Shown piece by piece: positions 2,623 through 29,254 of a stretch of 29,682 bases of DNA. Location of the stretch: the IMG/VR virus record IMGVR_UViG_3300042470_000231, positions 1 to 29,682 of that record. One strand, written 5' to 3'. Numbering within the stretch: the first letter of the stretch is position 1; the number at the start of each line of letters is the position of its first letter. Under the pieces are notes generated by a model. That model was not told the DNA's origin, searched no databases, and saw only the letters and a list, made by a program, of their open reading frames with translations. The stretch is from a virus. The position numbers and the translations under genes were made by a program.

Positions 2623-2814
2623 TCAAGTCCGTCGCGACCGCCGGCAGGCCAGCCGCACGAGTTGCCTGGCCCCGAAGTCAGTCCACGGCAGTTTCGTCCT
2701 GCCGTCGGCCCACCGCTTCGCGTGCTCGTCACGCATGACGCCGAGAATCTCGGCCGTGCCAGCGTCGCTCTCGCACCAGTCGGGGCCGAGGCAGCCGGCT
2801 AGACCGGCCCCCAT
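2623..2814 (-). CDS. Small hypothetical protein (63 aa)
   Basis: It starts at ATG 2814 inside the end of the zinc-ribbon gene (16-base overlap) and ends 29 bases before the zincin gene, so it fits the operon. The product begins MGAGLAGCLGPDWCESD, has a central AEILGVMRDEHAKRWADG helix and a basic end. No family is recognised. A competing frame at 2526-2732 seems less likely because it would overlap the zincin gene. Confidence 0.5.
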   Translation of the reverse strand: MGAGLAGCLGPDWCESDAGTAEILGVMRDEHAKRWADGRTKLPWTDFGARQLVRLACRRSRRT

Positions 2815-3203
2815 TTACCGACGGGGCACTTTTCACCCGCCCACGCCAACTTCGACACGGTCTTCATCTGTCGTATGAGCGGGCACCCGCACTTTGAGCA
2901 GGCTCCCGCCTGGAAGAACTCGCAATTCTCGCAGATCGCGTAGCGCGCGTCGATCTGCTCTTGTGTTGCAGTCTTCATTCCGGCCGCGACGTGCCGGGCT
3001 GCGGACGTGGCGAAGTTCTTAGCCTTTGCCAGCAGCGACGGCATCGCGTGGCCGGGCCTAGGCTCGCGCGGGTATGCCGCGTGATCCGTGTCTACGGTGA
3101 TCGCGTCGCCATCCTGCGAAACGATGCACGGCCGTACCTCGTCGAGCGTGTAGCCGCGCTCGCGGCAGCGGGCCTCTAGGTTGTGCAGCTTGCAGGCGAT
3201 CAT
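2799..3203 (-). CDS. Zinc-ribbon phage protein (134 aa)
   Basis: The start ATG at 3203 overlaps the stop of the 658-residue tail protein (ATGA). The C-terminal third holds a cysteine cluster: C91-x-x-C94, C102-x-x-C105-x-C107 and C126 in KCPVGKW. This pattern (RY.IC..CEFF..G.C..CGC...CP.GKW) is a recurrent zinc-ribbon module in phage structural regions. The N-terminal half (LEARCRERGYTLDEV...SQDGD) seems a separate domain with two more cysteines (C13, C26). No catalytic motif is seen. Its place just after the tail genes suggests a tail-related or host-takeover role; which one is not shown. Confidence 0.7.
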   Translation of the reverse strand: MIACKLHNLEARCRERGYTLDEVRPCIVSQDGDAITVDTDHAAYPREPRPGHAMPSLLAKAKNFATSAARHVAAGMKTATQEQIDARYAICENCEFFQAGACSKCGCPLIRQMKTVSKLAWAGEKCPVGKWGPV

Positions 3204-5176
3204 GGCAGCGGGTTACAGATCGAGTTTCCTTCCTCGTCAACACAAAGCGTGTCAGCGCCCTGCCATTCGCGCGCGCTGCCCAATGATTGGCAATACTCAT
3301 CCGAAAGATTGTCCGTGCAAGCAGGCCCATCACAGCACGCCCCGCACACGCACGGGTCCACTTCCATTTCCACCCAAATCGCCTTGCTGGCAACGGCCTC
3401 TAAAAACTCTTCAAAGCATGGGCTTTGACTAAAAAGCGCGCCATCCTCAGACAAAAAACCTTCTTGGTAATCGCCTATAAAACCTGCCTGAGTCAAAGCC
3501 CCCACAGTGCCGAGCGTCTCGCTAGCCTTCGTTTGGCTGCACTCTGTGAACTCAAACGCCGGCGCTATTCGGGTTGTGGGAGAGCCATCTGCCAAATCGT
3601 TCCACAAGCCATCGTCAGTCGTAAAAAACAACGGAAACCCAAGAGGGAAGTAATGAACTACAGTGATTGTTTTTTCACACCCACACCTGTCGGCGTCAGT
3701 GTATTTAGTACTCAGGGGATACTCGGCAAACCGCAAGGTGAAATAGTCCACCTTGAAGCTGCCGGGGTATATCCAGTCGAAGCCCTTGTAGCCTGCGCCG
3801 CCATCCGTCAGCGATAGCGATGTGACCTTGCCGAACGTCGGCGACGACGTATCGTCATCCACCACAGCGGTGATCTCTGCGCCCGCGCCGGCACCGCTCG
3901 GCGACTGCTGCACCGTGACCGTCGGCGTCCTGACGTAAGGCTCCAGTTCCGGGTTTTCCCGGTAATACACGCCGCCGTACGACACGGAGATAGACTCAAT
4001 TTCTCCGTTGTCTAGGTAGTCGTAGTATTCGCCGCCGTCGTCTACTCTGATGCTCTTTAGTTCGTCGGTGTCGACGTAGTAGCCTCCAGGGTTAAATACG
4101 ATTGCCTGCGTGATCTCGCCATCGTCGCCAACACCAGTAACGTAGCCGAGAAAAGCCGCCTCCTCGACGCCGTTCGTAGAGGCCACTAAAATCTCTTCGT
4201 TGACTGCGTAGCCAGTCCCGGCGTCGTCAATCGATAGATCGCTGACGCTCCATATCTCCGGGTCTTCTAGGTTGCTGGCTAGAACTGCGGACACCTGCGC
4301 GCCAGAGCCGCCCTCTGTCGAAACCACCTCCAGGGTTAGGTTAGGCTCAATGCGCTGCGTGACGACAACCACCGCGCCGGCTCTTTCCACCACAGCCGCT
4401 CCGGAGGAAAGGTTGACTGACTCCCCGTCAACGTAGTCCTGAGATGCGCCGCTCACAGAGATCGATGAGATAGTCCACGTCGCTGGATCGGCTTCGGTTT
4501 TGGAAAGACTGACTGTCAGCGTGGCCCCGGTGCCAGACGTGGTCGATGCTGTGATCGTTGGCTCTAGGTGCTGTTTCTTGGTGGTAATTGTTCCATTTGC
4601 GGCAGCGACGACCGTGTCGCCTTTGGAAGCCGTAACGACAATGGCCTGGCCGGCTGTGTACCCATCGCCGCCGTCCGTTAAAGAGATTGATTCAATCGAC
4701 CACAGCGGCAGTTGGCAGCCGTCGTCAGACTCCGTGAGCGTGAACGACACCGTGGCCGGCGTGGTGTTCTTGTTGTCCAGCGTAAATGTTGGAGCCTCCC
4801 TGCCGAGCTTGGCATAGCCGCTGCCTTTGCTGGTTAGGGTCACGCCACTGATTGGCCCGGTGTCATCGCCACCAGTCGCTGTGGCAGTCGCGGCAGCTCC
4901 AGACCCGAAGCATGTAGGTCCAAAAACAACCGAAAGCAGGCTCGGTCCCTCTGTTTTTGTGCCCTTGCACTCAAAGCCAAAGTCAATTTTTAATTGGCTT
5001 TTGAACCCGTCGCCGATTTCGCTGTCTCCGGCGTTCATGCGCAGCACGATGCCAGGAAATGGGTCAACTCTGTCGCCAACAATGCTCGTGTTTAGGGTTC
5101 CGTACGCGCGCGCCCGTGTGCATGGGCATGGTCCGATGCAGCAGCAATTCGAGCACTTCGCGCCCAGCATCGCCAT
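3200..5176 (-). CDS. Large repetitive tail protein with GGxGY repeats and Cys-rich ends
   Basis: A 658-residue protein; ATG 5176 is chosen because it follows the stop of the upstream gene by one base. The N-terminus is cysteine-rich (C8, C11-C13, C17, C19). The middle is beta-rich and built from about eight degenerate units of the type 'I-x-SISLTDGGDGY-x-x-G', such as SISLTDGGDGY, DLSIDDAGTGY, SIRVDDGGEYY, SISVSYGGVYY and SLSLTDGGAGY. Units of this sort occur in phage virion proteins. The C-terminus carries CGACCDGPAC...WQG...C, like a motif common in planctomycete proteins. The last third is visibly poorer in GC. Probable tail-tip or fibre-like adhesin; role inferred from position and architecture. 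Confidence 0.7.
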   Translation of the reverse strand: MAMLGAKCSNCCCIGPCPCTRARAYGTLNTSIVGDRVDPFPGIVLRMNAGDSEIGDGFKSQLKIDFGFECKGTKTEGPSLLSVVFGPTCFGSGAAATATATGGDDTGPISGVTLTSKGSGYAKLGREAPTFTLDNKNTTPATVSFTLTESDDGCQLPLWSIESISLTDGGDGYTAGQAIVVTASKGDTVVAAANGTITTKKQHLEPTITASTTSGTGATLTVSLSKTEADPATWTISSISVSGASQDYVDGESVNLSSGAAVVERAGAVVVVTQRIEPNLTLEVVSTEGGSGAQVSAVLASNLEDPEIWSVSDLSIDDAGTGYAVNEEILVASTNGVEEAAFLGYVTGVGDDGEITQAIVFNPGGYYVDTDELKSIRVDDGGEYYDYLDNGEIESISVSYGGVYYRENPELEPYVRTPTVTVQQSPSGAGAGAEITAVVDDDTSSPTFGKVTSLSLTDGGAGYKGFDWIYPGSFKVDYFTLRFAEYPLSTKYTDADRCGCEKTITVVHYFPLGFPLFFTTDDGLWNDLADGSPTTRIAPAFEFTECSQTKASETLGTVGALTQAGFIGDYQEGFLSEDGALFSQSPCFEEFLEAVASKAIWVEMEVDPCVCGACCDGPACTDNLSDEYCQSLGSAREWQGADTLCVDEEGNSICNPLP

Positions 5177-5177
5177 G

Positions 5178-5510
5178 TCAGCACTCCGCGGCGATGAGGA
5201 ACCATGCTGTGCCATCGCGGGCAATGGCACAGTTGCGAAATGATGCCACGGACGTGCCGATCACGGCGAACAAGTTAGTGGCCGACACCGTGTTCGGCGT
5301 AGCCGTCTGATACTTGAACGTGACGGTCTTTGAGGCGTTTTTCGCCCATCCGCCCGTAAACGTGCAGACGCGAAAGGCTCGCCGCCGCCCCGCCTCAATA
5401 ACAGGCGAGAAACCCAGCGACTTCGTGCGGCGAGGCTCCTGCTCCACGGCCCGCACGACGCGAGCGACGCGAGCGGCCGAACCAAGGTCAAACTGTGCGA
5501 GGTCAGCCAT
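5178..5510 (-). CDS. Hypothetical tail-region protein (110 aa)
   Basis: This gene lies between two tail-region genes, starting three bases after the stop of the gene upstream and ending one base before the next start. The product begins MADLAQFDLGSAARVARVVR (a helix), followed by a basic stretch and a beta-rich part with TFTGGWAKNA and VTFKYQTATPN. It lacks membrane spans and known motifs. A minor tail or baseplate-like role is inferred only from its place between the tape measure and the large repetitive tail protein. Confidence 0.6.
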   Translation of the reverse strand: MADLAQFDLGSAARVARVVRAVEQEPRRTKSLGFSPVIEAGRRRAFRVCTFTGGWAKNASKTVTFKYQTATPNTVSATNLFAVIGTSVASFRNCAIARDGTAWFLIAAEC

Positions 5511-5513
5511 GGC

Positions 5514-6410
5514 TCAGATCGGCAGCGGAGTGGTCGGAGCATTGCCGAACAGCGACGCGAAGTTCGCCACCGGATTCACGCGGCGATTCAGGATTGCTGG
5601 CGCGCCAAGTGTCATAGCCCCACTTCCGTTTAGCCCGACAGGGTTCGGGCTTGCTACCCATTCGGCGTTGTCGAAATCAAAAACCATAGCGCGTCGCTTT
5701 TGGTTGCCGCTGATGAAATTGAACCCCACGTCCGGCAGCTGGAGGTTGTGGCCGCTCTGGCGGTAGTGCAGCTCGGCGGTTGACTTCCAGTAGGCGACTA
5801 CGCTGCCGCCGAACTCTTCCTGCTCCTGCTTGACGGTGATTTTGTCAAGCTTGATCGAATGTGCCGGGCAGCCGAGGTACGTCGAATCATTCACGCACTG
5901 GCTGGCCGCAAACCACGCGCTCGGGAAATTCGCAAAGTTGGCGGTGACCTTCGCCACCGTCAAAGCCTCCTGCGTGACGAGCCCAGGGAAATAGTCATAG
6001 GCGCTGTTCGTGAGCGGATACTTCGTTTCGTTACCAGCACCGTCGTAGTAGAAGAGCGCCGGCACCTCGCCAGGCGCGCCATCAAACTCCCACACATATG
6101 GCCTGTTTGTCGGCGTCGTCCGCTCCCACCCCATGACAATCCCGTACTCCGTCAACACATGGACGTGATACGGCGATCCCTCGAAGCCCTCCGTAATGGT
6201 CAGCTTTCGCACGCGATAAGACGTGTACTGCGGATGCGTGGACTCGAGGTCGATGCCGATGGCCGTAGCGATTTGCGGCTCGGTGATCGGCGTTCCCGTC
6301 AGCGCGTCGTCGCTCAAGACGCACACGAACTCCCGAGTGAGCTGTCGCGTCCTGCCAATCTCGAACACGCCCCTGCGCGGCAATTCCTTGAAAGATACAA
6401 CAGTCGCCAT
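5514..6410 (-). CDS. Probable tail-tip structural protein (298 aa)
   Basis: The ATG at 6410 lies three bases after the tape measure stop. The 298-residue product is beta-rich, with aromatic residues spread throughout (YDYFPGL, VAYWKSTAEL, HYRQSGHNL) and no signal or membrane span. Position directly after the tape measure is where long-tailed phages keep the distal tail protein (Dit) and hub proteins, and the length fits a Dit-size protein, but I recognise no Dit motif. Residues near the C-terminus (RRVNPVANFASLFG) may be exposed. Function is inferred from position. Confidence 0.6.
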   Translation of the reverse strand: MATVVSFKELPRRGVFEIGRTRQLTREFVCVLSDDALTGTPITEPQIATAIGIDLESTHPQYTSYRVRKLTITEGFEGSPYHVHVLTEYGIVMGWERTTPTNRPYVWEFDGAPGEVPALFYYDGAGNETKYPLTNSAYDYFPGLVTQEALTVAKVTANFANFPSAWFAASQCVNDSTYLGCPAHSIKLDKITVKQEQEEFGGSVVAYWKSTAELHYRQSGHNLQLPDVGFNFISGNQKRRAMVFDFDNAEWVASPNPVGLNGSGAMTLGAPAILNRRVNPVANFASLFGNAPTTPLPI

Positions 6411-6413
6411 ACG

Positions 6414-9400
6414 TCACCCGAGGATCACGGACGGCACGCCGATCCGGTTGAGGTTATTGAGCAGGGCATTGGCTTGCTGCCGTAGGAGCTTGTTCGTTAG
6501 CCGCGCCTCGATGAGCCGCGGATCTTGAGCGTTGGCCGCGAGGCCCAGCACCAGGGCGGCACCCTCCTGCGTCCGCACGTCGGCAGTGTTCACAGTCTGC
6601 GAGCCGACGGTGTTGAGTTCGCCGAGACGCTTTTGCTGACGGTCGAACTCGGCGGCTTGGGCCTTGGCTTGTTCGGCGGCGAAGTCTTGCTGTGCCTTTT
6701 GGGCTTCCTCGTATTGTTTCTGCTGGGCCTGGGCAAATTGCGTTTGCTCACGCTCTTGAGCCGTGGCGGCATCTGCGGCTTGCTTTGCCAGGGCGGCTCT
6801 CTGAGCCTCAGCGTTCTTCACTTCGTCGGCCGCATCCTGCGCTTTTTTCTTCTTGATGTCTTCGAGGTTCTGGATCTCTTGAGCGAACAACTCCTGCTGC
6901 CGCGCCACCTCGGCGTCGAACGCTTCTTTGTTCAGGATGCCGTCGCGGGCTTGCTCCTGGGCGGCGGCAATTCCTTCCTGCAACCGCTGGGCAGCCTCAG
7001 CCCCGGCGTTGCCGAACTCGGCGGCCTTGTTGATCGTTTGCCCGATGGCTTGATCCACCTGCTTGAACGCACGGGCGAAGCCCTCGCCAAAGCCTTGCTC
7101 TGACGCCTGTTGCTGGTCTTCCAGCCGGGCCTGCAGTTGGTCCAGTTGGGCCAGCCGTGCCGCGGCGGCATCGGCCTCGGCTTGATTGCTGGCCTCGCGG
7201 GCCGTGAGCAAGTCTGCGGTCGCCTGGGCCTGCTGCTCCTGCACGTCGATAATTTGCCGCTCGATCTCTGACTGCTCCTGGCCGGCGGCGAGGAGCTCAT
7301 CGACGCGAGCCCGCTGGTCGTCCAGGCGTTGCCGCTCGGCCTCGGCGGCGGCTGCGGAGCCGTCTGCGATAGACTCTTGCTCGGACTTGATGACGCCAAG
7401 TTGGCGAATCCGCTCTTCGCCATTGGCGACCGCCTCGGCGTCTCCGTTGTCGATAGCCGCCGCCACCTCCTCGCGGATACGGGCGATCTCCCGCTCGACG
7501 GCCAGCACTTGCTCGGCTGCCTGCGCCCGGTTGGTGTCGCCGCCGAACTCGCGGTTGATTCGGGCCTGCTCCAGAAGTTGATCCGCCACCTGTTTGTCGG
7601 CATCGACGCGACGCTGGGCCTCGTCGGCGGCCTTGCGAGTCTCTTCCTGCACCGTGCGAAGCGACTCGATCTGCCGGTCGTACTCGGCCGTGGCGTTTGC
7701 CACGCCTCGAGCGTACTGCTCGGCGTTGAGTTCTCCGCTGTTCGCCTGCTCCTGCAAGTCCTCCAGAGCAGTCTGGAACTCCAGGGCCGCGTCGAAGCCT
7801 GCCTGCCCGAACTCGCCCGCCTTTTCGATGGCACCGTCGAGAGCCTTGCCGGAATCAGCGATAGCCTTCTGCACTTCGGTCATCGCCTTTTGCTGCTCGG
7901 CCGTGAGCGTCGTCACGCTTGCTGCCGTCGCGTCAACGCCTTTGGCAGCATCGCTCGCGGCACGGTCGATGCCGAGGAAGTTTTCCGCCATGGTTAGGAG
8001 CCGGCCAACTGTGCCGCCGATAGCACCGGCAATGGTCGAGAACACCGACGCGACCGATCCAAACACGCTGTTGATGACGCCGCCGATTGCCGACAACGCA
8101 CCGCTCAGCCCAGTGAACTCCGTGAATGACGCCACGGTGGAGCCAACGTATTCCGCCACGCTGCCGAGCGTGTTGCCGATCACCTCGCCAATCCTGCCGA
8201 ACGCAGTCGTGATGATCGTCACGACGCGGCTGATGGTGTCGCCCAGGACTCCGACGTTGGCGGCGATCGCCCCGATTGGCGTGAATGAAACAACCCACTC
8301 CGTGACGGCTACGGCAGCGTTGCTAATCGACTCGAGGAAACCGAACACGCTTTCGGCAAGTGGCTCAAAAGCCTGCGACACAGCCTGCACGACCGTGGCG
8401 AACGGCTCAAACACCGCACCGATGACTCGGCCGAGATTGCCGATTCCTGTGCCGATGAGTTCGATCACGCGGCCGATGTTGGTCAGGATGGGCTCCAGCA
8501 CTTGACCGATGGGGTCGATGATCGCCGTGAGCCCGGCAGTGATCTCGGCGAACGCGGTGGCGACGCCTTCGCCAAGGCCGACAAATGGCAGCAAGAGCGA
8601 CTGCCCGAGTCCTTGTGTTGCCACGCCAAGCGCGTCGAGGCCCGCACCGAACTCGTCAATGCGGCGGCGGTCGATAACGGTGAGGGCGCGACCGAATCGC
8701 TCCATGTCCACCGCGGCACCAGGGAGGTTGCGGAAGAACGGCAGCAAGTCCGCGCCCGATTTGCCGAACAACGCAATCGAGGTCGCCGTGCGGCGGGCCG
8801 GGTCTTCGATTGCCGCGAGGCTTTGCCCGATTCGCAGGTACTGCTCTTCGGGCGACAGTGCCGCCAACTCTTCCGAAGTGACGCCGATCTCGGCGAGAGC
8901 CTTCTGCGCCGACTTGCTCTCTTCGTCCACGCCGAGCACCGACTTCTGCAACCGGCCGAACGCCGCACTCACCGCGTCGATGCTCGTGCCGCTGCGGGTC
9001 GCCGCCGCCTCCAGCGTCTGGATGAACTCGAACGACACGCCGAGCTTGTCGGCGGTGTTGCCCAAGTTCTCCACGCGATCCTCCAGGGAGGTGAGCCCCT
9101 GAACGACAGCCGTCGCCGCCGCACCGAACGCTGCCACGCCAGCTACCGCCGCCGTGAACGGATTCACAAGCCCCGCCACCGAAGCCCCGATGCTCGTGAG
9201 CCCCTGCGACAGCCCGGCACCGAACACGCGAGACAGCCCTTCGCCGGCAGACGAGAGCCCCGACAGCCTGCCAGCGACGTTGCCAATCGGCCCCGGCAGG
9301 GCCGACAGCACGCCGCTCAGTTCGTTGAATTTGAGGGCACCGCCGTCGCCGGCCGCGTTCGACGCCGTCGCGTACTTGTTCGCCTCGACAGTCGCCTTGG

Positions 9401-9857
9401 CAAACGATTCAGCCGACCGCTGCACGGCGAGGCCGTATTGCTCCTCGTCCAAGAGCCCGGCATCGCGGAGCCGATTCAGTTCGGCAATCGACTGCTCGTA
9501 TGCCTTGGTAGCCCGCTGCTCTTTAGTCAGGTTGGCTTCGACAATCTGAGCCGCACGACCGAGATCATCGGCAGCATCGTTCGCCGCCGCCTGCAACTGC
9601 TCGAGCGACCGGGCGTAGTCTTGCGGGCTGGTCAGCCCGGCCTTGAGGCTCTCGGTCAACGCCCGCAGGCGAACCTCGAACTTTTCCTGTTGCTGCGCCG
9701 CCGCAGCCGACTCGCTGCCGAACTTCCGAAACACCGCCGTGACGCTGGCGGCCTCCTTGTCCAACTGCTGCAGCGCCCGCTCGACGGGCGAAAGGCTCTG
9801 CCGAACGCCCGTGGCGTCCGCAGAAATCTTCATCGCCAGTGAGAGCACGTTCGCCAT
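6414..9857 (-). CDS. Tape measure protein
   Basis: The longest gene in the window (1147 residues). The start is ATG 9857, which overlaps the stop of the frameshifted chaperone frame (ATGA). The N-terminal 200 residues and the last 400 are Ala/Glu/Gln-rich coiled coil. The middle (roughly 230-600) is hydrophobic and Gly-rich, with membrane-like stretches such as ITTAFGRIGEVIGNTLGSV, as expected of a protein that sets tail length and helps DNA cross the membrane. The gene following the G/GT chaperone pair is the tape measure in long-tailed phages, which settles the call. Two related segments in the C-terminal part suggest internal duplication. Confidence 0.93.
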   Translation of the reverse strand: MANVLSLAMKISADATGVRQSLSPVERALQQLDKEAASVTAVFRKFGSESAAAAQQQEKFEVRLRALTESLKAGLTSPQDYARSLEQLQAAANDAADDLGRAAQIVEANLTKEQRATKAYEQSIAELNRLRDAGLLDEEQYGLAVQRSAESFAKATVEANKYATASNAAGDGGALKFNELSGVLSALPGPIGNVAGRLSGLSSAGEGLSRVFGAGLSQGLTSIGASVAGLVNPFTAAVAGVAAFGAAATAVVQGLTSLEDRVENLGNTADKLGVSFEFIQTLEAAATRSGTSIDAVSAAFGRLQKSVLGVDEESKSAQKALAEIGVTSEELAALSPEEQYLRIGQSLAAIEDPARRTATSIALFGKSGADLLPFFRNLPGAAVDMERFGRALTVIDRRRIDEFGAGLDALGVATQGLGQSLLLPFVGLGEGVATAFAEITAGLTAIIDPIGQVLEPILTNIGRVIELIGTGIGNLGRVIGAVFEPFATVVQAVSQAFEPLAESVFGFLESISNAAVAVTEWVVSFTPIGAIAANVGVLGDTISRVVTIITTAFGRIGEVIGNTLGSVAEYVGSTVASFTEFTGLSGALSAIGGVINSVFGSVASVFSTIAGAIGGTVGRLLTMAENFLGIDRAASDAAKGVDATAASVTTLTAEQQKAMTEVQKAIADSGKALDGAIEKAGEFGQAGFDAALEFQTALEDLQEQANSGELNAEQYARGVANATAEYDRQIESLRTVQEETRKAADEAQRRVDADKQVADQLLEQARINREFGGDTNRAQAAEQVLAVEREIARIREEVAAAIDNGDAEAVANGEERIRQLGVIKSEQESIADGSAAAAEAERQRLDDQRARVDELLAAGQEQSEIERQIIDVQEQQAQATADLLTAREASNQAEADAAAARLAQLDQLQARLEDQQQASEQGFGEGFARAFKQVDQAIGQTINKAAEFGNAGAEAAQRLQEGIAAAQEQARDGILNKEAFDAEVARQQELFAQEIQNLEDIKKKKAQDAADEVKNAEAQRAALAKQAADAATAQEREQTQFAQAQQKQYEEAQKAQQDFAAEQAKAQAAEFDRQQKRLGELNTVGSQTVNTADVRTQEGAALVLGLAANAQDPRLIEARLTNKLLRQQANALLNNLNRIGVPSVILG

Positions 9858-13905: not shown

Positions 13906-14105
13906 TGCCTGCGTCGCTTTCTCGGTGTCACGTCGGCCGACTCGGCCACCGGCTCCACGCTCGCCGTCTCGATCAGAGACTTCTGGTCGTCACGAACCTC
14001 GGTGGCGTATTCCCACGCGATCAGACTCTGCGCCAAGATGGCGTCTACCTCGATGACCTCGCCGGGCCGGTAGGCTCCGTGCGGCTTCGCCATTCGTATT
14101 TTCAT
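13902..14105 (-). CDS. Small hypothetical protein (67 aa)
   Basis: ATG 14105 overlaps the stop of the glycosyltransferase gene (ATGA); the longer frame upstream shadows that gene. The product starts MKIRMAKPHGAYRPGEVIEV, then has DAILAQSLIAWEYATEV and ends in a basic tail (PRKRRRQ). The 'YrpGevieV....A..Li..g.A' pattern is common in short proteins between capsid and connector genes of phages, where it may act as a head accessory subunit. Role not shown. Confidence 0.65.
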   Translation of the reverse strand: MKIRMAKPHGAYRPGEVIEVDAILAQSLIAWEYATEVRDDQKSLIETASVEPVAESADVTPRKRRRQ

Positions 14106-14839
14106 TCTTCCCCCACACTCCATGCAGCCTTCGGCGGCCTCCGCGTCTCCTGCCATTCGTTGCAGTATTGGAAAACCGGCTGGCCGAGTTCCTGGCTGGG
14201 CCAGGTGATGACGTACTCGCCGTGCCCGATACAGACGCGGGGCGTGATGTAGAGCCGATTGCCGCACGCCTTGAACTGCTTCCAGAACGAGATGTCGGAG
14301 TCGACCCGCCCCTCGCCCCAGCCGCCTTGCGGATCGGGCTTCTCGTGGAACCACGGCTTTGCCATCCGCCGCAGGGCAGCGGTCGAGATGATGGTGCAGC
14401 CGAAATGCGCGGTGTCCACCTGTTGAACCGGGGCACCGAACCACTCGCGGGGCACCTGGGTCACGCCACCTTCGGGCGGATTGTCGAGCGTGTCGAGCAG
14501 CGTGAGCATCGGTCTGCCGTCCTCCCTCTTCGTCTGGAGCGGAGCCAAGGCGTCACATTGAAACGTCATCGCCAAGGCGAACAGATGTTCGATGTTCTCC
14601 TTCGACACGAAGCTGTCCATGTCGAGCGTGATGATGTATTCCGTGGTCGGCTCGAACTTCTCCAGCATCCGGGTCAGCACCTGGCTCCAGAACGCACCCT
14701 GGCCGAGCGTCGGGCGAATGTGCAGCGGCATCATCGCCTCGATGAAGCCGAACACGTTGATGAGCGGCCCGAAGCGTGGCCCGCTCAGGATCGCCTCGCA
14801 CCGCACCTCGACCGACGATCCGCCGACTTGCACGAGCAT
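14102..14839 (-). CDS. Glycosyltransferase, GT-A fold
   Basis: A 245-residue protein from ATG 14839. It has a DxD motif in a hydrophobic strand (YIITLDMDSF, with D73 and D75), as GT-A enzymes use to bind nucleotide-sugar and metal. Further on are AHFGCTIISTAAL (about 144-156) and GWGEGRVDSDISFW (about 173-186), matching the acceptor/catalytic region of many phage-encoded family-2-like enzymes. No membrane span is present. It lies among head genes, 27 bases beyond the hairpin-terminator. The nearby GDP-fucose genes suggest it may use GDP-fucose, but the specificity is an inference. Confidence 0.75.
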   Translation of the reverse strand: MLVQVGGSSVEVRCEAILSGPRFGPLINVFGFIEAMMPLHIRPTLGQGAFWSQVLTRMLEKFEPTTEYIITLDMDSFVSKENIEHLFALAMTFQCDALAPLQTKREDGRPMLTLLDTLDNPPEGGVTQVPREWFGAPVQQVDTAHFGCTIISTAALRRMAKPWFHEKPDPQGGWGEGRVDSDISFWKQFKACGNRLYITPRVCIGHGEYVITWPSQELGQPVFQYCNEWQETRRPPKAAWSVGEE

Positions 14840-18058: not shown

Positions 18059-19913
18059 GCTTTCGCCCCTTCCGCTTCGGCTTGCCGTAGGCGTTCTCCT
18101 CGACCGGTGGCGGCTCGGGCAGCGGGTCGATCTTCGTGAGCGTTGCCACCTTGTGACCGACTTGCGTCTCGGTCGCACGCCACTCGCCGGCCACCTCTTC
18201 GTAGACCGTGATGAGGGCGGCAGGGTCGTCCTCGCTCGCCTCGATCTTGAAGTCGGTGCCTGGGATGTCGAGCGTGCCGTAGTCCATGACGTGGTCGATC
18301 CGCCCGCGAGCGCGACCGCCCGACGAATCCCACGAGACGAAGTCGCCTTCCGACACGGTGCCAGGTTTGGCCCGATCCTCGGAGCGACCCGCCGGGGCGG
18401 CAGGCACCGGCTCGGTTTGCAGCGGCTGTGCATCGACCGCTGCGGGTGCTGGCTGACGCTCCACCACCCCGGCAAGGATCGCCGCAATCTGTGCGGCATT
18501 CATGCTCGGGAACGCCGCAGCGACCATCGCAGCCGCACCGTCCTTCGACACCAACCCATCGACCACCGACTGAATGATCGCAATGAGCCCCGTGATCTGA
18601 GCACCGTTCAGCGACACGTCGGCGACTTGCGGAGCCTCGGTCTCGACAGGCTCGCCCGGCGTCGCCGGCACCACCGGCTCGCCAGCCGCAGCGGCAAGCC
18701 CGCCCTCGACCGCCTGGCCGTCGATCTCGCTTCCCGGCTGCTGCTGGGCCAGCACGTCGCCCTCGCTCGGCTGCTCGCCCAGCGTGCCCATGTTCAGCGG
18801 GCGGTAGCGAACGTCGCCGCCCTCGACCGGGTCGAGGTTCTCGGTGGCGCGGATGTCGTTCGTCGAAACGACGCCGATGTCCCACATTGCCCGGTAGTAC
18901 GCAGACCGGCTGGCGGCATCGCCACGCAGCAGTCCACGCACGTCGAACTCGATCAGATAGCGGTCGTCTTCCGCGATGAGGTCGCGCATGAACGCCGACT
19001 CAAAACGCCGCAGCCACGGCATGATGCAATGCGTGACGAACGCGATATCGCCATCCGGTGTCGCGGGGCCGATGCCAAGCAAATGCCCAGGCACGCGGAA
19101 CAGACGGGCGATCTCCTCGAGCTGGTAGCGGCGCAGCTCGATGAACTGGCTGTCGGTATTGCTCGCCTGCGGAATGTCGTAGGGCTTCAATCCGCCGGTC
19201 AGCACCGCCGTGTTGTGAGCGTTGCCGACGCCGCCGTGCCGCCGGTCCCACTGCGACCGCAACGCCTCGCGGGCCTCCGCATTGAGTTGCCCATCGGTCG
19301 AGAGAACGAACCCAGGGCGGGCACCGGCAGCGAAGAACCGCGCCCCGTGCAACTCGCACGCCCGAGCTAGTGCGATGGCGTCTTTGCACTCGGCGACCAC
19401 GCTCATTCCGTTCACGCCGTCGTCGGACGGGCCGCGAATCTGAAGGATCGCATCGTCGGCGTAGACGGTCTCGGTGCCCTTGTCCTCGCGGTACTTGTAT
19501 CGCAGCTTGCCGTTCTCGATCCGCTCCACCTTCATCCGGCTCGGATGCAGCGGCACGATCTGCCCGGCCTTGAGTTCGTCAAATGCGTCGCCCCATAGCC
19601 CGACGTGGAACACCGACTGCTCACGCCACTCGAAGCTCGTCTGCCATCCGTTCGGCTGCGAGTGCAGTTGCCGATACAGCGGCAGTTCGCGGGCGATCCG
19701 CTTCCCGCCCCCAGCCGTCCGCTCCAGCACATGCAGGGGCAATCCCGCCACCGTCTCCGCAATCACCCGCAGGCAGGCGAACACCGCCGCGACCTGGTGA
19801 GCGTTGCTCTCGTCAATTCGCACGCCAGCGTTCGACCGGCTCGATGGCTCGTCGTCCCACATGCGGGACTCGCCAGGGAGCCAGAGGATGCGGTTGTCGG
19901 CGGGGGCGATCAT
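18048..19913 (-). CDS. Portal protein (HK97 family) with C-terminal Tudor-like domain
   Basis: A 621-residue protein whose ATG (19913) overlaps the terminase stop. Residues 1-400 follow HK97 portals: VAAVFACLRVIAETVAGLPLH, YRQLHSQPNGWQTSFEWR, VHPSR-like PLHPSRMKVERI, RRYQLEEIARLFRVPGHLLG, and ATENLDPVEGGD. After a Pro/Glu/Gln-rich linker comes a second domain (about 515-595): GDFVSWDSSGGRARGRI, PGTDFKIEASEDDPAALI and VGHKVATLTKI, resembling the Tudor-like DUF2945 type. Portals average 400-450 residues, so it is enlarged by about 180. It makes the DNA entry ring of the head. Confidence 0.93.
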   Translation of the reverse strand: MIAPADNRILWLPGESRMWDDEPSSRSNAGVRIDESNAHQVAAVFACLRVIAETVAGLPLHVLERTAGGGKRIARELPLYRQLHSQPNGWQTSFEWREQSVFHVGLWGDAFDELKAGQIVPLHPSRMKVERIENGKLRYKYREDKGTETVYADDAILQIRGPSDDGVNGMSVVAECKDAIALARACELHGARFFAAGARPGFVLSTDGQLNAEAREALRSQWDRRHGGVGNAHNTAVLTGGLKPYDIPQASNTDSQFIELRRYQLEEIARLFRVPGHLLGIGPATPDGDIAFVTHCIMPWLRRFESAFMRDLIAEDDRYLIEFDVRGLLRGDAASRSAYYRAMWDIGVVSTNDIRATENLDPVEGGDVRYRPLNMGTLGEQPSEGDVLAQQQPGSEIDGQAVEGGLAAAAGEPVVPATPGEPVETEAPQVADVSLNGAQITGLIAIIQSVVDGLVSKDGAAAMVAAAFPSMNAAQIAAILAGVVERQPAPAAVDAQPLQTEPVPAAPAGRSEDRAKPGTVSEGDFVSWDSSGGRARGRIDHVMDYGTLDIPGTDFKIEASEDDPAALITVYEEVAGEWRATETQVGHKVATLTKIDPLPEPPPVEENAYGKPKRKGRKRGS

Positions 19914-21541
19914 ATGAAGAAGATTTCAGGCGTACCGCTCGGCTGCTGCTCGGCACCCATCCACGCCGCGATTCCTTCGCAGCAGGCCACGATGCCGTCT
20001 ATTCGCTCCGTGCTCTTCGCCTTGCTGGGGTAGATGTTGCCGTGCCGGTCCTCGGCCACCGCACAATTCGACGCATTCCACGAAAACACCGGCTGCCCGG
20101 CGTGCCGCACCTTGCCGGCCAGCACGAGGTTTTCCAGCGTCTTCAAGGGGGCCGACATGGCGCGCCCGCCTTGTGGATATCCAACCACGTCTACCCCATC
20201 CCCTTGCAGCATGTTCGCCAGCATCTGCCCGTTGAACTTCAGATCCACGGCCAGGCGACGCACGTTGTACTGGCTGCAAATCGCCGCAATGTCACGGTGC
20301 AGAATCGTGTAGTCGGTGACGTTCCCGTCCGTGACTCGGATGTGCCCGTCACGAATCCACCCGAGGTAGTCCACCTTGTCGCGGTGCGACCGCTCGGCTG
20401 CGTTGCTCTCGGGAATCCAGAAGAACGGCAGGATGTCGAGCGAGTTGTCTTCCGGGTCGGGGCAGACGAGCACCAGGGCGGTGAGGTCATACGTGCTCGC
20501 AAGATCGAGCCCCGCGTACACCGGGCGGTCGCCGAACTCGCGCAGCGGGCCGCCGCACGAAGCCCACGCATCCGGCTTGAAGAACCGCGTGTCTTGCGTC
20601 GTCCAGACGTTGAGCCTGTACCGCAGAAACGAGTTGAGCTTCGTCGGGCTCTGCTCCGCCTCACGGGCATCCGCCGCGAACGACTCCTCGGTGATCGTCT
20701 CCCCTAGCGACGGGTTGGCGATCCGCCAGACCTTCGGAGTCTTCCACGTTCCATCGGCCGCACACTCGGGCGGGGCCGCGTAGATGCACCCGTAGAACGA
20801 TGGGTCGAACCCCGGATCTGCGATGCACTTCTCCGCGTAGGCGTGCTGCTCCCAGCAGATGCTCTTGCGGTCGAATCCCGCCGTCGTGATCGAGAGAATG
20901 AGCGGCTGCCGGCGAGCCGCGCCGCCGTATCGCAGGGCATCCCACAGCCGGCGGTCACGCTGGGCATGAAGCTCATCGAATAGCAGCATGTGGATGTTCA
21001 AGCCTTCCGCCCGAAACGCATCCGCCGACAGCACCCGATAGAACGAGTTTGTCGCCTTGTGAATGATCGTCTTGCGCGAGTCGATCACCTCCAGCACCCG
21101 AGACAACGCGGGCGACGAGCGGACCATCGCCGCAGCCTCGCGGTAGATGATGCCCGCCTGCTCACGGTCTGCGGCGGCACCGTAAATCTCGGCACCTTGC
21201 TCGCCATCCGCGACAAGCCCATACAGGGCGATGCCCGCGAGGGTTGTGCTTTTGCCCTGCTTTTTGGGCAATTCGATGTACCCCACCCGCGCCTGCCGAG
21301 TCTTGTCGGGCTTCACCCGGCCGAAGATGTTGCCGAGCACGTTTTTCTGCCACGGCATCAGCGTGAATGGTTTGCCAGCCGTCTGCCCCTTGCTGTGCCG
21401 CAAGAGGCTCTCGAAGAAGTCAAAGACTTGAGCGGCTCGCCCCTCGTCAATCTCGGGGATGACGCCAGCCTTCTCAGCCGCCTTGATGGCGGGCGAAGAA
21501 ATCTGCCAAGTCGTCGGCGGGCTTTTCTTGCTTCGTGCCAA
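19910..21541 (-). CDS. terL: Terminase large subunit
   Basis: The 543-residue protein has the Terminase_1 layout: LMPWQ (61-65, Q motif), LPKKQGKST (Walker A, about 91-99), LLFDE (Walker B, D189-E190) followed by LSITTAG, and the nuclease half with D346 in YAGLDLAST, D433 in LAVDLK and D515 in RIDGI. It cuts and pumps DNA into the prohead. The start is TTG 21541 with AGGG six bases upstream and a 68-base overlap with the small subunit; no ATG or GTG in frame would shorten that. The assigned start is therefore the least certain part. Confidence 0.95.
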   Translation of the reverse strand: MARSKKSPPTTWQISSPAIKAAEKAGVIPEIDEGRAAQVFDFFESLLRHSKGQTAGKPFTLMPWQKNVLGNIFGRVKPDKTRQARVGYIELPKKQGKSTTLAGIALYGLVADGEQGAEIYGAAADREQAGIIYREAAAMVRSSPALSRVLEVIDSRKTIIHKATNSFYRVLSADAFRAEGLNIHMLLFDELHAQRDRRLWDALRYGGAARRQPLILSITTAGFDRKSICWEQHAYAEKCIADPGFDPSFYGCIYAAPPECAADGTWKTPKVWRIANPSLGETITEESFAADAREAEQSPTKLNSFLRYRLNVWTTQDTRFFKPDAWASCGGPLREFGDRPVYAGLDLASTYDLTALVLVCPDPEDNSLDILPFFWIPESNAAERSHRDKVDYLGWIRDGHIRVTDGNVTDYTILHRDIAAICSQYNVRRLAVDLKFNGQMLANMLQGDGVDVVGYPQGGRAMSAPLKTLENLVLAGKVRHAGQPVFSWNASNCAVAEDRHGNIYPSKAKSTERIDGIVACCEGIAAWMGAEQQPSGTPEIFFI

Positions 21542-22404: not shown

Positions 22405-23391
22405 TCACACCAGGATAGATCCAGCCAGGGCTTCTCTTGCAGCAAGCCTCGAGTCCGCGTCCACCATCATCCGCACCAAGGCATGGAAGCCTGTGCGAGG
22501 TCGCCAGCCAAGCAGCTCGGCGGCAACGCTGGCATCCGCCTGGAGCACGTCAACCTCGGCCGGGCGGTAGTACCTCGGGTCGATCTCGACGTGGTCACGG
22601 TAGTCGAGCCCAGCATGGGCGAACGCCGCTTCGCAGAACTCCCGCACGGTATGCGTCTCGCCCGTGCCGATGACGTACTCGCGTGGCTCACCTTGCTGGA
22701 GCATGAGCCACATGGCCTCGACATAGTCGCCAGCGAAGCCCCAGTCTCGCCGAGCATCGAGGTTGCCGAGGTAGAGTTTTTCCTGAAGCCCGTGCTTGAT
22801 TCGCCCGACCGCCCGCGTGATCTTGCGGGTCACGAACGTCTCGCCACGTCGCGGGCTCTCGTGGTTGAACAGGATGCCGCACGAGGCGTGAAGTCCATAA
22901 GACTCGCGGTAGTTGATCGCGGTCGCGTGGGCGAACAGTTTCGCGCAAGCGTAGGGCGATCGTGGGTGGAACGGCGTGGCCTCGCTCTGCGGGGCAGGGG
23001 CGTTGCCAAACAGTTCGCTGCTCGACGCCTGATAGAACCTCGCCTGCGGCGCGTGGTCGCGGATCGCCTCAAGCATCCGCAGGCAGCCGAGCCCAGTGGC
23101 GTCGGCCGTGTAGGTCGGCTGGTCGAACGACACGCGGACGTGGCTCTGGGCGGCGAGGTTGTAGACCTCGTCTGGCTGGACCTCGCGGACAATGCGGGCC
23201 ATCGCGCCGCCGTCGCACACGTCGCCGTGGTGGAGGTGGAGTCGCTCGAACTCGTGATCGATGCGGCCCGTGTTGAACGTGCTGGCTCGCCGCACGACGC
23301 CATGCACCTCGTAGCCCTTCGCGAGCAGGAACTCGGCGAGGTAGGAGCCGTCCTGGCCCGTGATGCCGGTGATCAGAGCGCGACGCTGCAT
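22405..23391 (-). CDS. gmd: GDP-mannose 4,6-dehydratase
   Basis: A 328-residue short-chain dehydratase, start at ATG 23391. It shows the NADP-binding [15 protein letters not shown] (9-23), [10 protein letters not shown] (77-86), [11 protein letters not shown] (119-129; active-site S124, E126) and SPYACAK (Y147, K151), then [16 protein letters not shown], all GMD signatures. The usual T of the T-S-E triad is a Ser here. It turns GDP-mannose into GDP-4-keto-6-deoxymannose, the substrate of the adjacent Fcl; the two genes overlap by 19 bases. Length is slightly below the usual 345-370, as the C-terminal end is short. An alternative start lies at 23406. Confidence 0.96.
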
Positions 23392-24284
23392 CGTTCTTTC
23401 CACCATGCGACTGTCTCGCGGATGCCGTCCTCCAGGCTTACTCGGGGCGTCCAGCCGAGCAGGCTCGCGGCCCGCGACGCATCGACGGCTCGGCGTGGCT
23501 GGCCATTCGGCATCGAATCGTTCCAGTAGACTGCGCCGGCAAATCCGCATGCGTCGGCGACCATGTCGGCAAGCCGCCGCATGGTCACTTCTCCGCCGCC
23601 GCCCAGGTTGATCGGCTCGGCGTCGCTGATCGTTTCTCCAGCCGCGACGATGCCGGCCGCCGCGTCGTCAACGTGAAGGAACTCGCGTGACGCGGAGCCG
23701 TCGCCCCACAAGACCACATCGCGTCCATCGCAGAACTTGCGAATCATCGCCGGGATGACGTGGCTCGACGCCGGGTCGAAGTTGTCGCCCGGGCCGTAGA
23801 GGTTCGTCGGGATCACGACCGCGCCGGCCATGCCGTACTGCCTGTTGTACTGCTTGAGCAATTCGTAGACGGCTCGCTTCGCTACGCCATAGCCGGCGTT
23901 CGTCTCTTCCGGGTAGCCGCTCCAGAGGTCGCCCTCGGCGAACGGCGGCCTGCAGAACTTCGGGTAGGAGCAGACCGTGCCGACGACGACGACCTTCTCG
24001 ACGCCGTGGATGCGGGCCTGCTCAATGACGTTGAGCCCCATCGCGAGGTTGGCGTAGGTGAATCGCCCTGGCTGGGCCATGTTCGCGCCGATGCCGCCGA
24101 CCTCGGCCGCGAGGTGGTAGACCACGCAAGGTTTCGCTGCCGCGAAATACTCTGCCGTCGCGGCGGCGTCAGTCAGGTCGCAGCCCCATCGTCGTGGTCG
24201 CAGCACGTCGTGGCCCGCCGCCTCAAGGAGCCGGCAGACGCGACGGCCGAGGAATCCGTTGCCGCCGGTGACGAGTGTCGTCAA
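23373..24284 (-). CDS. fcl: GDP-L-fucose synthase (GDP-4-keto-6-deoxymannose epimerase/reductase)
   Basis: A 303-residue enzyme starting at TTG 24284 (TTGA overlap with the stop of the gene upstream): [15 protein letters not shown] holds the Rossmann GxxGxxG. Signature segments are [16 protein letters not shown] (about 100-115), [14 protein letters not shown] (Y132, K136) and NLYGPGDNF, followed by [12 protein letters not shown]. Together these are diagnostic of the Fcl family. It makes GDP-L-fucose from the GMD product in the cytoplasm. The substrate for the window's glycosyltransferase may come from here. Confidence 0.95.
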
Positions 24285-24598
24285 GGCTCGACCTCGTCTC
24301 TCGGCAGCATCGCCACTGCATCGCCCCACGGAATGACCTCGACGCTGGCGAGCAACACGGCCTTGTCTGCCGATTGCCACATGGCGTGCAGCATCCCGCC
24401 GGGCATCACCTCGGTGAGCAGGTCAGCCGAGAGCATCAACCGCCCGTCTGTCATCACTCGCGGCACCGGAACGCATGCCGGATGGCCGTGGACCGCGTGC
24501 AGTTCGGCCAGCCTCGCGGCGAGGGCCGGCGTGAATACGAGCGCGTACTGTTTCGCGTCGTCGTAGGAGATCGGAAGCGACAGTTCGCCGAGTGTCAT
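24281..24598 (-). CDS. Hypothetical protein (105 aa)
   Basis: The start at ATG 24598 overlaps the previous stop (ATGA). The product begins MTLGELSLPISYDDAKQYAL, then ALAARLAELHAVHGHPACVP, MTDGRLMLSADLLTEV, and ends with DEVEP. A mixed alpha-beta protein without signal, spans or known motifs. It is the link between the tail-fibre genes and fcl/gmd. No function can be assigned. Confidence 0.6.
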   Translation of the reverse strand: MTLGELSLPISYDDAKQYALVFTPALAARLAELHAVHGHPACVPVPRVMTDGRLMLSADLLTEVMPGGMLHAMWQSADKAVLLASVEVIPWGDAVAMLPRDEVEP

Positions 24599-28074: not shown

Positions 28075-28334
28075 GGCCGCACCTTCCCGGTGCCACCGCA
28101 CGCGCCACATGAAACGACGACGCGGCCATCCGTGGGCAGCTTGCCCGTGCCGCTGCACGGTTCGCACTTGTCGCCCGGCCTCGGCCCAGGTGCAGGCGGC
28201 GGGTCCACTTCCGCACGCAACGCCATCACGGCCCGTGCCGTCTCGACTGCGAGGTCGGCCGACACGGTCGGATCGTCGGGCAGCGTCGCCACGCAGCCAG
28301 CCATCACGACGACGAACACGAGCAGGAACCTCAC
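28071..28334 (-). CDS. Lipoprotein with two DnaJ-type CxxCxGxG motifs
   Basis: An 87-residue protein; ATG 28334 overlaps the upstream stop (ATGA). It opens with a lipoprotein signal MRFLLVFVVVMAGC (Cys at 14; M at -3 is less usual), then a helix, a proline linker PPPAPGPRPG, and two zinc motifs: C57-x-x-C60-S-G-T-G and C76-x-x-C79-G-G-T-G. These match the DnaJ zinc-finger repeat, which usually comes in fours. A small lipoprotein in a lysis-like block could be a spanin-like partner (Rz1 size), but the zinc finger is atypical for that. Confidence 0.7.
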   Translation of the reverse strand: MRFLLVFVVVMAGCVATLPDDPTVSADLAVETARAVMALRAEVDPPPAPGPRPGDKCEPCSGTGKLPTDGRVVVSCGACGGTGKVRP

Positions 28335-29254
28335 AGCACGTCTCCCGTCCAGTCGGGCAGTTGCGTGGGCTTGAATCCCGAGTAGCCCGCGTAGACGTAG
28401 GAGTCACGGCCCGAGAGCATCCGCGTACACACGTCGGCGTCGATCCAGAATGAGCAGTTCCGCACGACGACGGGCATCGTCTCGGGGTAGTGGCGGCCGA
28501 CGGTGTTGGAGTCGCCCCACGAGTTCAAACAGAGCAGGCCGGGCCGTCGGCCCCACCTCACGCCGGCCAGGCACATGCAGTGCCACCACACGCCGCCTGG
28601 CTTGCAGAAGCCGTCCTCGTCGCGGGACATGGAAAAGCCCTGACCGCTACACGCCACGCACGCAAAGCCGTTCTGGATCGCCGCCGCCGCTTCCTCGAAC
28701 GTCGTGGCGAGCGTCGTCTCGCTGCACCGCCGCAGCTGGGCGTAGGGCTCGAGCTCGTCGGGCACGCCCATTCGGCCCCAGGTGCGATCCCGCTGGGCCT
28801 TGTCGGCCTCCGCGATCACCACGCCGCCGTAGTCGATGCCATAGTGCAGAGCCCCGAAGTCGCGGATGGCTTTCGCCGCATGGAAGCCCGTGCTGCCGTC
28901 ACCGCCGTTGTTTGCCTTTTGCCCGCGAGCCTCGACACGGGAAAACCCGTAGAGCGACGCCTCAACGGTGCGAGCTCGCACGACCTCGGGCTCGTGGCGA
29001 TGCACAACGTCGCAGGCGGCCACGAAGTCCACGGCCAGGCTCGCACCCCAGCCGACGCAAGATCCCACGTCGCCCTGCGAACCGCGCCGCCAGTTGGGCA
29101 GGCACTTGAGCAGTGCCGGGTACAGCATCACCTCGCGGCGGTCGTCAGCCCGGAAGCCGGGGGCCGCACTCGCCAGCGTCGGGTGCGGCAACGTGGCGAC
29201 GAACGCCGCAGAGCCCTCGGGATCGGGCACGTAGCCGAACGCATGACTCGCCAC
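28331..29254 (-). CDS. Papain-like (C1-type) cysteine protease homologue
   Basis: A 307-residue protein from GTG 29254, with GGGAGG upstream. It shows all papain landmarks in order: Q60-GDVGS-C66-VGWG (oxyanion Gln six residues before the Cys, as in papain's QGSCGSC), H225 in WWHCMC and N244 in LNSWGDS. Families of this type hydrolyse peptide bonds; the substrate here is unknown. There is no signal peptide. It is followed by a lipoprotein and two small membrane proteins in a lysis-like block, with no lysozyme or amidase in the window, so a role in breaking the host envelope or virion maturation is possible. Confidence 0.85.
   Translation of the reverse strand: MASHAFGYVPDPEGSAAFVATLPHPTLASAAPGFRADDRREVMLYPALLKCLPNWRRGSQGDVGSCVGWGASLAVDFVAACDVVHRHEPEVVRARTVEASLYGFSRVEARGQKANNGGDGSTGFHAAKAIRDFGALHYGIDYGGVVIAEADKAQRDRTWGRMGVPDELEPYAQLRRCSETTLATTFEEAAAAIQNGFACVACSGQGFSMSRDEDGFCKPGGVWWHCMCLAGVRWGRRPGLLCLNSWGDSNTVGRHYPETMPVVVRNCSFWIDADVCTRMLSGRDSYVYAGYSGFKPTQLPDWTGDVL

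Follow-up and report, generated by a model that had tools for sequence, protein, structure and literature searches.

The virus record IMGVR_UViG_3300042470_000231 of IMG/VR, analysed here over its whole length of 29,682 bases (the window), encodes on its minus strand a cysteine-rich protein that ends in a true copy of a small cysteine module. This module, termed here the GACC module, comprises about 40 residues and six cysteines (GACC-xxDGxC-...-C-...-GxxTxC-...-C), and searches of Pfam, NCBIfam and PHROG gave no model for it. It recurs at one gene slot across a large clade of viruses and is no one-off capture by the window virus. Among cellular genomes, as far as sequence searches tell, the module is enriched in planctomycetes, with a patchy distribution that also takes in other bacteria, and the virus itself probably infects Planctomycetota. 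The cysteine-rich product is taken for a phage tail protein from its gene order, after the tape measure gene, and from a weak match to a baseplate PHROG. Its features are as follows.

3200..5230, minus strand: cysteine-rich tail-region protein, 676 amino acids from a GTG at 5230, or 658 amino acids from the likely ATG at 5176
5120..5155, minus strand: N-terminal cysteine cluster CSNCCCIGPCPC, after MLGAK (compare MLGGKCSKCC in the related locus L012 and MLGSQCSPCC in L141)
3776..4855 (bounds by eye), minus strand: middle region with repeated SISLTDGGDGY-like stretches, fibre- or structural-repeat-like, as read directly
3215..3343, minus strand: C-terminal GACC module, residues 630-672 (43 amino acids), with cysteines 632, 633, 638, 647, 663 and 672
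3203..3214, minus strand: C-terminal NPLP, followed by the stop codon at 3202-3200

The frame closes with ...VDPCVCGACCDGPACTDNLSDEYCQSLGSAREWQGADTLCVDEEGNSICNPLP and a stop codon. Its GTG start is overlapped by the small gene at 5510-5178, while the ATG at 5176 lies one base past the stop of that gene and has GGAG upstream; since the product from this ATG also begins with MAMLGAKCSNCC, resembling the start of the L012 protein (MGMLGGKCSKCC), the 658-residue form is the likelier protein. From the N-terminus the protein consists of the cysteine cluster, the repeat-rich middle, about 140 further residues, the cysteine tail and NPLP. The frame had no Pfam match above the cut-off and no NCBIfam match, residues 371-482 alone gave a weak PHROG match to a baseplate wedge (E 4.8e-5), and the middle region gave weak tblastn matches to cyanophage structural proteins (E 0.6-0.9). 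No such repeat-rich middle was seen in the shorter relatives, for example L021 and L128.

The preliminary description had seen a planctomycete-like cysteine motif at the end of a phage tail protein at 3200-3350, and this is borne out: the module at 3343-3215, NPLP and the stop follow one another there, and the likeness exceeds chance in shuffle tests. The window tail has the six-cysteine spacing CC-x(1-6)-C-x(6-10)-C-x(4-20)-GxxTxC-x(2-9)-C, a pattern that was written after the variants had been seen and that fits 9 of 1,000,000 shuffles of the tail. By the conserved columns of 90 aligned rows, it also keeps G630 and A631 before the cysteine pair, and G658 and T661 of the G-x-x-T before the fifth cysteine. 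The xxDGxC after the pair is absent from the window copy, which reads GACC--DGPAC with two residues fewer; short forms of this kind occur also in relatives (GACCQGTSC, GACCEGGEC) and in planctomycete frames (GACCDGVTC, GACCNGNSC). When scored together with 20,000 composition-keeping shuffles, the tail ranked 2nd of 20,001 by a profile of 45 viral instances, from which L021 was excluded, and 4th of 20,001 by a planctomycete-only profile of 153 instances from 88 loci. The cysteine-rich frame was the best of the window frames by both profiles, with E-values of 0.024 (viral) and 0.048 (planctomycete). The last 54 residues were modelled with AlphaFold2 from the window tail and 89 supplied rows (chosen from 381 module instances plus a longer L021 row); this model had a mean pLDDT of 85 and a beta-beta-alpha-beta order. 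When 18 module sequences were compared with Pfam and NCBIfam, any one family was matched by at most one of them, and weakly.

The gene slot is defined by the neighbours of the cysteine-rich gene, listed here with the large terminase gene.

6414..9857, minus strand: tape measure protein
5514..6410, minus strand: conserved protein of the tail region, which served as family marker (264 relatives found in viral contigs, of which the best 80 were retained)
5178..5510, minus strand: small gene before the cysteine-rich gene (counterparts in L010, L012, L021 and L088 38-62% identical; no PHROG)
2799..3203, minus strand: next gene after the cysteine-rich gene, a small cysteine protein, zinc-ribbon-like by eye (phrog_13558, E 2.7e-9)
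19910..21541, minus strand: large terminase, basis of the host assignment

A DNA pattern for GACCxxDGxC found at least 135 matches in at least 120 stretches of viral contigs; some are plain chance matches in short frames, and many lie in long frames, often in several copies. Among the stretches listed, ten match some window gene. Six of these are in the slot (L007, L010, L012, L021, L088 and L124): each matches at least three window genes, and the GACC frame adjoins the same neighbours, following the 5178-5510 gene, preceding the 2799-3203 gene, or both. The other four (L041, L044, L045 and L054) were left out of the slot count. Six relatives that were tested for PHROGs had none at E 0.05. L021 has at least 12 genes in common with the window, one of them at 72% identity; its cysteine protein aligns to that of the window over residues 559-663 only, at 27% identity.

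A wider view of the slot was obtained from the best 80 of the 264 relatives of the 5514-6410 protein, together with the window and with L021, which was included because of its motif. Under the filters used, 50 of these 82 loci have a complete cysteine-rich protein, and 35 of these are distinct at 90% identity. GACC-like stretches occur in 11 of the 35, by a pattern written after the stretches had been seen; L173 is doubtful among these 11, L128 is divergent, and L147, L157, L159 and L183 are alike and not independent. The pattern leaves 24 distinct members without GACC, one of which (L194) matches the profile. The slot proteins differ in their interior from one relative to another, and their ends are often alike. 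N-x-[L/F/C]-P closes 15 of the 35, the window protein included, and also the proteins of L007, L010 and L124. This ending directly precedes the stop. As to a possible DNA signal in NPLP, the codons vary synonymously, but NPLP overlaps the start of the next gene, which itself overlaps the stop of the cysteine-rich gene (ATGA).

The module is also found outside this slot. In L067, which belongs to another viral group, a 1,022-residue frame with the module matches tail-fibre PHROGs (best E 1.1e-6) and collagen-like tail PHROGs. Environmental viral frames of about 1,000 residues, in L016, L050, L057, L065, L067, L098 and L105, carry GACC modules after GxTG-rich stretches. Neither the window tail nor the L067 frame matched named phages, and one planctomycete module matched neither named phages nor plasmids, in tblastn searches that are weak for short cysteine-rich queries.

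The preliminary description had called the repeat common in planctomycete proteins, and had named as the contrary outcome a lack of matches or best matches confined to phages of other phyla; planctomycete genomes were in fact matched. A gapped pattern found at least 119 loci in GTDB genome contigs, and 114 of the matches listed reached 13 bits by profile in a frame 85 or more residues long. Of these, 96 are titled planctomycetes, 8 are titled only 'bacterium' and 10 have other titles; several of the 96 share an assembly, and a hand count of accession prefixes gives about 62 assemblies. A few of the loci listed are titled Zixibacteria, Eisenbacteria, Dehalococcoidia, Bacteroidetes, Chitinophagaceae, Alphaproteobacteria and Kiloniellaceae. 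Profile searches by phylum (E 1e-5, groups taken from titles) found the module in 24 of 120 genomes of a Phycisphaerae sample (one a seed), with up to 64 matches per genome, in 6 of 149 genomes of a sample of the planctomycete phylum (one a seed) and in 10 of 169 Myxococcota genomes (two seeds). The same profile found no module in Pseudomonadota (0/150), Bacteroidota (0/148) and Actinomycetota (0/149), three groups that contain no known positive.

By a home-made rule, signal-like N-termini are present in 47 of 73 planctomycete module frames and in 41 of 152 other long frames, the latter not verified as genes. Several of 20 planctomycete module frames that were printed end, by eye, in dockerin-like repeats. 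These features suggest export for the proteins in which Phycisphaerae and some other bacteria use the module, frequently as tandem copies. In a Phycisphaerales genome, the frame at about 39-590 of L314 encodes a protein that is SecG-like by eye; its second membrane segment is followed by a GACC module, and it contains WQGADT, as does the window.

As a clue to the host, which the preliminary description had proposed, the repeat fares less evenly. The virus is probably a planctomycete virus, as the terminase indicates, but the module is no signature of such a host. Assigning the host from the module alone was rejected, because it is as frequent in Myxococcota (10/169) as in the planctomycete phylum sample (6/149). 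The large terminase gives an assignment that is independent of the module. It had matches in 21 of 343 Planctomycetota genomes, the best at 53%, 50% and 50% identity, and in 20 of 248 of the Phycisphaerae sample, where the best match is the same row as in the Planctomycetota search, as against 34 of 349 Pseudomonadota genomes (best 35-38%) and 9 of 149 Actinomycetota genomes (best 41%). Among named phages 1,702 matched, and 15 listed at 44-46% identity have mostly Bacillota hosts. In a tree of 31 terminase rows, which are best hits from samples that did not include Bacillota genomes, the window falls in a clade of five rows (support 100/99) with L323, L324, L325 and L330, all from planctomycete samples, and six Bacillota phages form a separate clade. 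The terminases of L323-L325, which come from Planctomycetota genomes, are 49-52% identical to that of the window. One genome, G263, holds both a contig with a window-type terminase and three module matches, and in its phage-like contig L343 the TerS, TerL, portal, capsid, connector and several tail genes match the window in order. L350 has a syntenic block in which, by eye, an integrase-like frame is preceded by a protein that begins with MGRPCACCGCRC.

Four findings are established: the module itself, its repeated occurrence in the slot, its bias towards planctomycetes and the grouping of the terminase. An explanation that would join them, and to which an even chance of being right is given, is that the protein is a tail-tip or fibre protein with a three-disulfide, beta-beta-alpha-beta module of host type, which is exposed on the tail and contacts the planctomycete envelope. 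The slot after the tape-measure region would encode, in this clade of uncultivated tailed viruses with probable planctomycete hosts, a cysteine-rich protein of the tail tip or fibre. Relatives would exchange its interior and keep its ends alike, with GACC modules, presumably gained from hosts, among the parts used. In the window version the module would make up the C-terminal domain, preceded by a long shaft rich in repeats. It may fold as a small beta-beta-alpha-beta unit whose three disulfides form once the virion is in oxic water, a reading suggested by the six strictly spaced cysteines with their CC pair and by the signal-like N-termini of many host copies. Displayed on the tail, it might then bind the envelope of planctomycetes, in which host proteins containing such modules are present as well. 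Such a tail slot for host-type cysteine modules might even point to homotypic recognition, in which envelope proteins made of these modules are bound by an ancient extracellular unit that is also present in the IRHD domain of animal iRhom proteins, although this extension is a long shot.

Several observations weigh against the proposed tail-tip or fibre protein. By profile, the window copy is matched only marginally (E 0.024-0.048), a Foldseek search with the 54-residue model gave nothing below E 0.001 in PDB or BFVD and no VIA match, and the full-length model of the protein, with a pLDDT of 30, is unusable. Most genomes of the planctomycete phylum sample are without the module, which Myxococcota also have. 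In the terminase tree, L330, one of the four partners of the window, is a long and unsure branch, and 12 other planctomycete rows fall elsewhere, two of them among Pseudomonadota rows. A search for prophages in GTDB r220 contigs with the tail marker A3 gave 79 pattern stretches and no relatives. Finally, the cysteine proteins of L021, L141 and L148 begin with a hydrophobic segment (e.g. MLDDPLGLIVQGIAILAAGMYPIGLMLGSQCSPCC), which is absent from the window protein and would be odd for a virion protein assembled in the cytoplasm.

A possible alternative, to which clearly less weight is given, is that the module serves only as a cap or spacer, stapled by disulfides, which gives stability to the end of the protein, its likeness to host proteins arising from easy local gene exchange, without a role in recognition. 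The slot uses other cysteine motifs as well: a second one, CSGPCxxxxPCPxGCxCVDGxC (CSGPCDGENPCPEGCVCVDGEC-like), is found in L130, L151, L160-L165, L168, L169, L173-L175 and L178, and the 24 of 35 distinct members without GACC look as though any cysteine-rich part would serve. Stability alone, however, leaves unexplained the repeated use of a particular module that is abundant in the probable host group.

It is unlikely that the cysteine-rich protein is absent from the virion and is instead exported during infection or lysogeny, to sit in the host envelope like the module proteins of the host. The hydrophobic N-terminal segments of L021, L141 and L148 and the signal-like starts of many host module frames would fit such a role, but the proteins of the window, L012, L128 and L160 have no signal sequence by eye, the gene sits in the tail block, and the repeat-rich middle weakly matches structural proteins. 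It is more improbable still that the tail tip has a metal or an iron-sulfur cluster bound by the cysteines, in the manner of gpL of phage lambda; the window protein does have a cysteine cluster at either end, but the strict spacing, the CC pair and the signal-like N-termini of host copies suggest disulfides. Chance or convergence, by which a cysteine-rich tail merely resembles the repeat, can draw on the marginal E-values of the window copy and is very improbable in view of the shuffle tests, the same slot in six relatives found by pattern and the confident model of the tail, for which the module alignment had been supplied.

The findings point to an uncatalogued cysteine module of export type that planctomycetes and their probable viruses have in common, and single out one tail gene slot as a likely point of contact with the host. 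Phages of planctomycetes seem little described. Searches of open-licence PMC full text for planctomycete phages or viruses by name returned only work on fish brain transcriptomes, and none of the papers listed from the same literature dealt with the GACC module or a phage protein bearing it; one report describes an extrachromosomal phage released by the cultured planctomycete strain ZRK32 (PMC10945688).

Apart from the cysteine-rich gene, the minus strand of the window has terminase, portal, capsid and tape-measure genes, and other genes deserve mention. At 22405-24380, a GDP-mannose 4,6-dehydratase (Pfam E 2.4e-136) and an adjoining NAD-dependent epimerase are probably a virus-carried pathway of GDP-fucose type. 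Among the head genes, 14102-14839 encodes a protein that is glycosyltransferase-like by eye, with no Pfam match; its copy in L021 is 72% identical. The protein at 28331-29254, likewise without a Pfam match, has papain-like signatures by eye (QGDVGSCVGWG, WHCMCLAG, LLCLNSWGD). A 98-residue frame at 2297-2593 with HELLH is zinc-peptidase-like, and its Pfam match to DUF6782, a putative metallopeptidase (E 0.0049), is below the cut-off.

Phage tail fibres are known to carry exchangeable adhesive domains, such as Ig-like domains. Like these, the GACC module would be a short, host-like domain that moves between tail proteins; here it is an uncatalogued cysteine module. When PDB sequences were searched with three module profiles, iRhom1 and iRhom2 were found each time, and otherwise only one defensin (once, E 0.38). 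The best iRhom E-values by profile were 0.0011 for the whole sequence (best single stretch 0.055), 0.017 and 0.026, and the matched stretch reads CC-x-GxCxxTxxxxCxxxxGxxxxxxTxCxxxxC. In our own reading of its description, this stretch falls within IRHD, the extracellular domain of animal inactive rhomboids, which has 8 disulfides and a fold called unprecedented there, with no similar structure (PMC11248996). The relation is a lead only: IRHD belongs to an animal membrane protein, and it was not among the structures that Foldseek matched to the 54-residue model. A cysteine-bearing C-terminal domain, lying at the outer side of a siphophage tail tip, is described for lambda gpL (PMC10721106) as having four cysteines and a [4Fe-4S] cluster; the window protein, likened to it by description only, differs in having six cysteines with disulfide-like spacing instead of four and a metal. 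Planctomycete envelopes are also known for cysteine-rich cell-wall proteins with YTV domains, which their description reports only in Planctomycetales (PMC8567305). Both these and the GACC proteins of planctomycetes are cysteine-rich and seem to belong to the envelope, but on that description the domains are different, and the GACC module is commonest in the Phycisphaerae sample.
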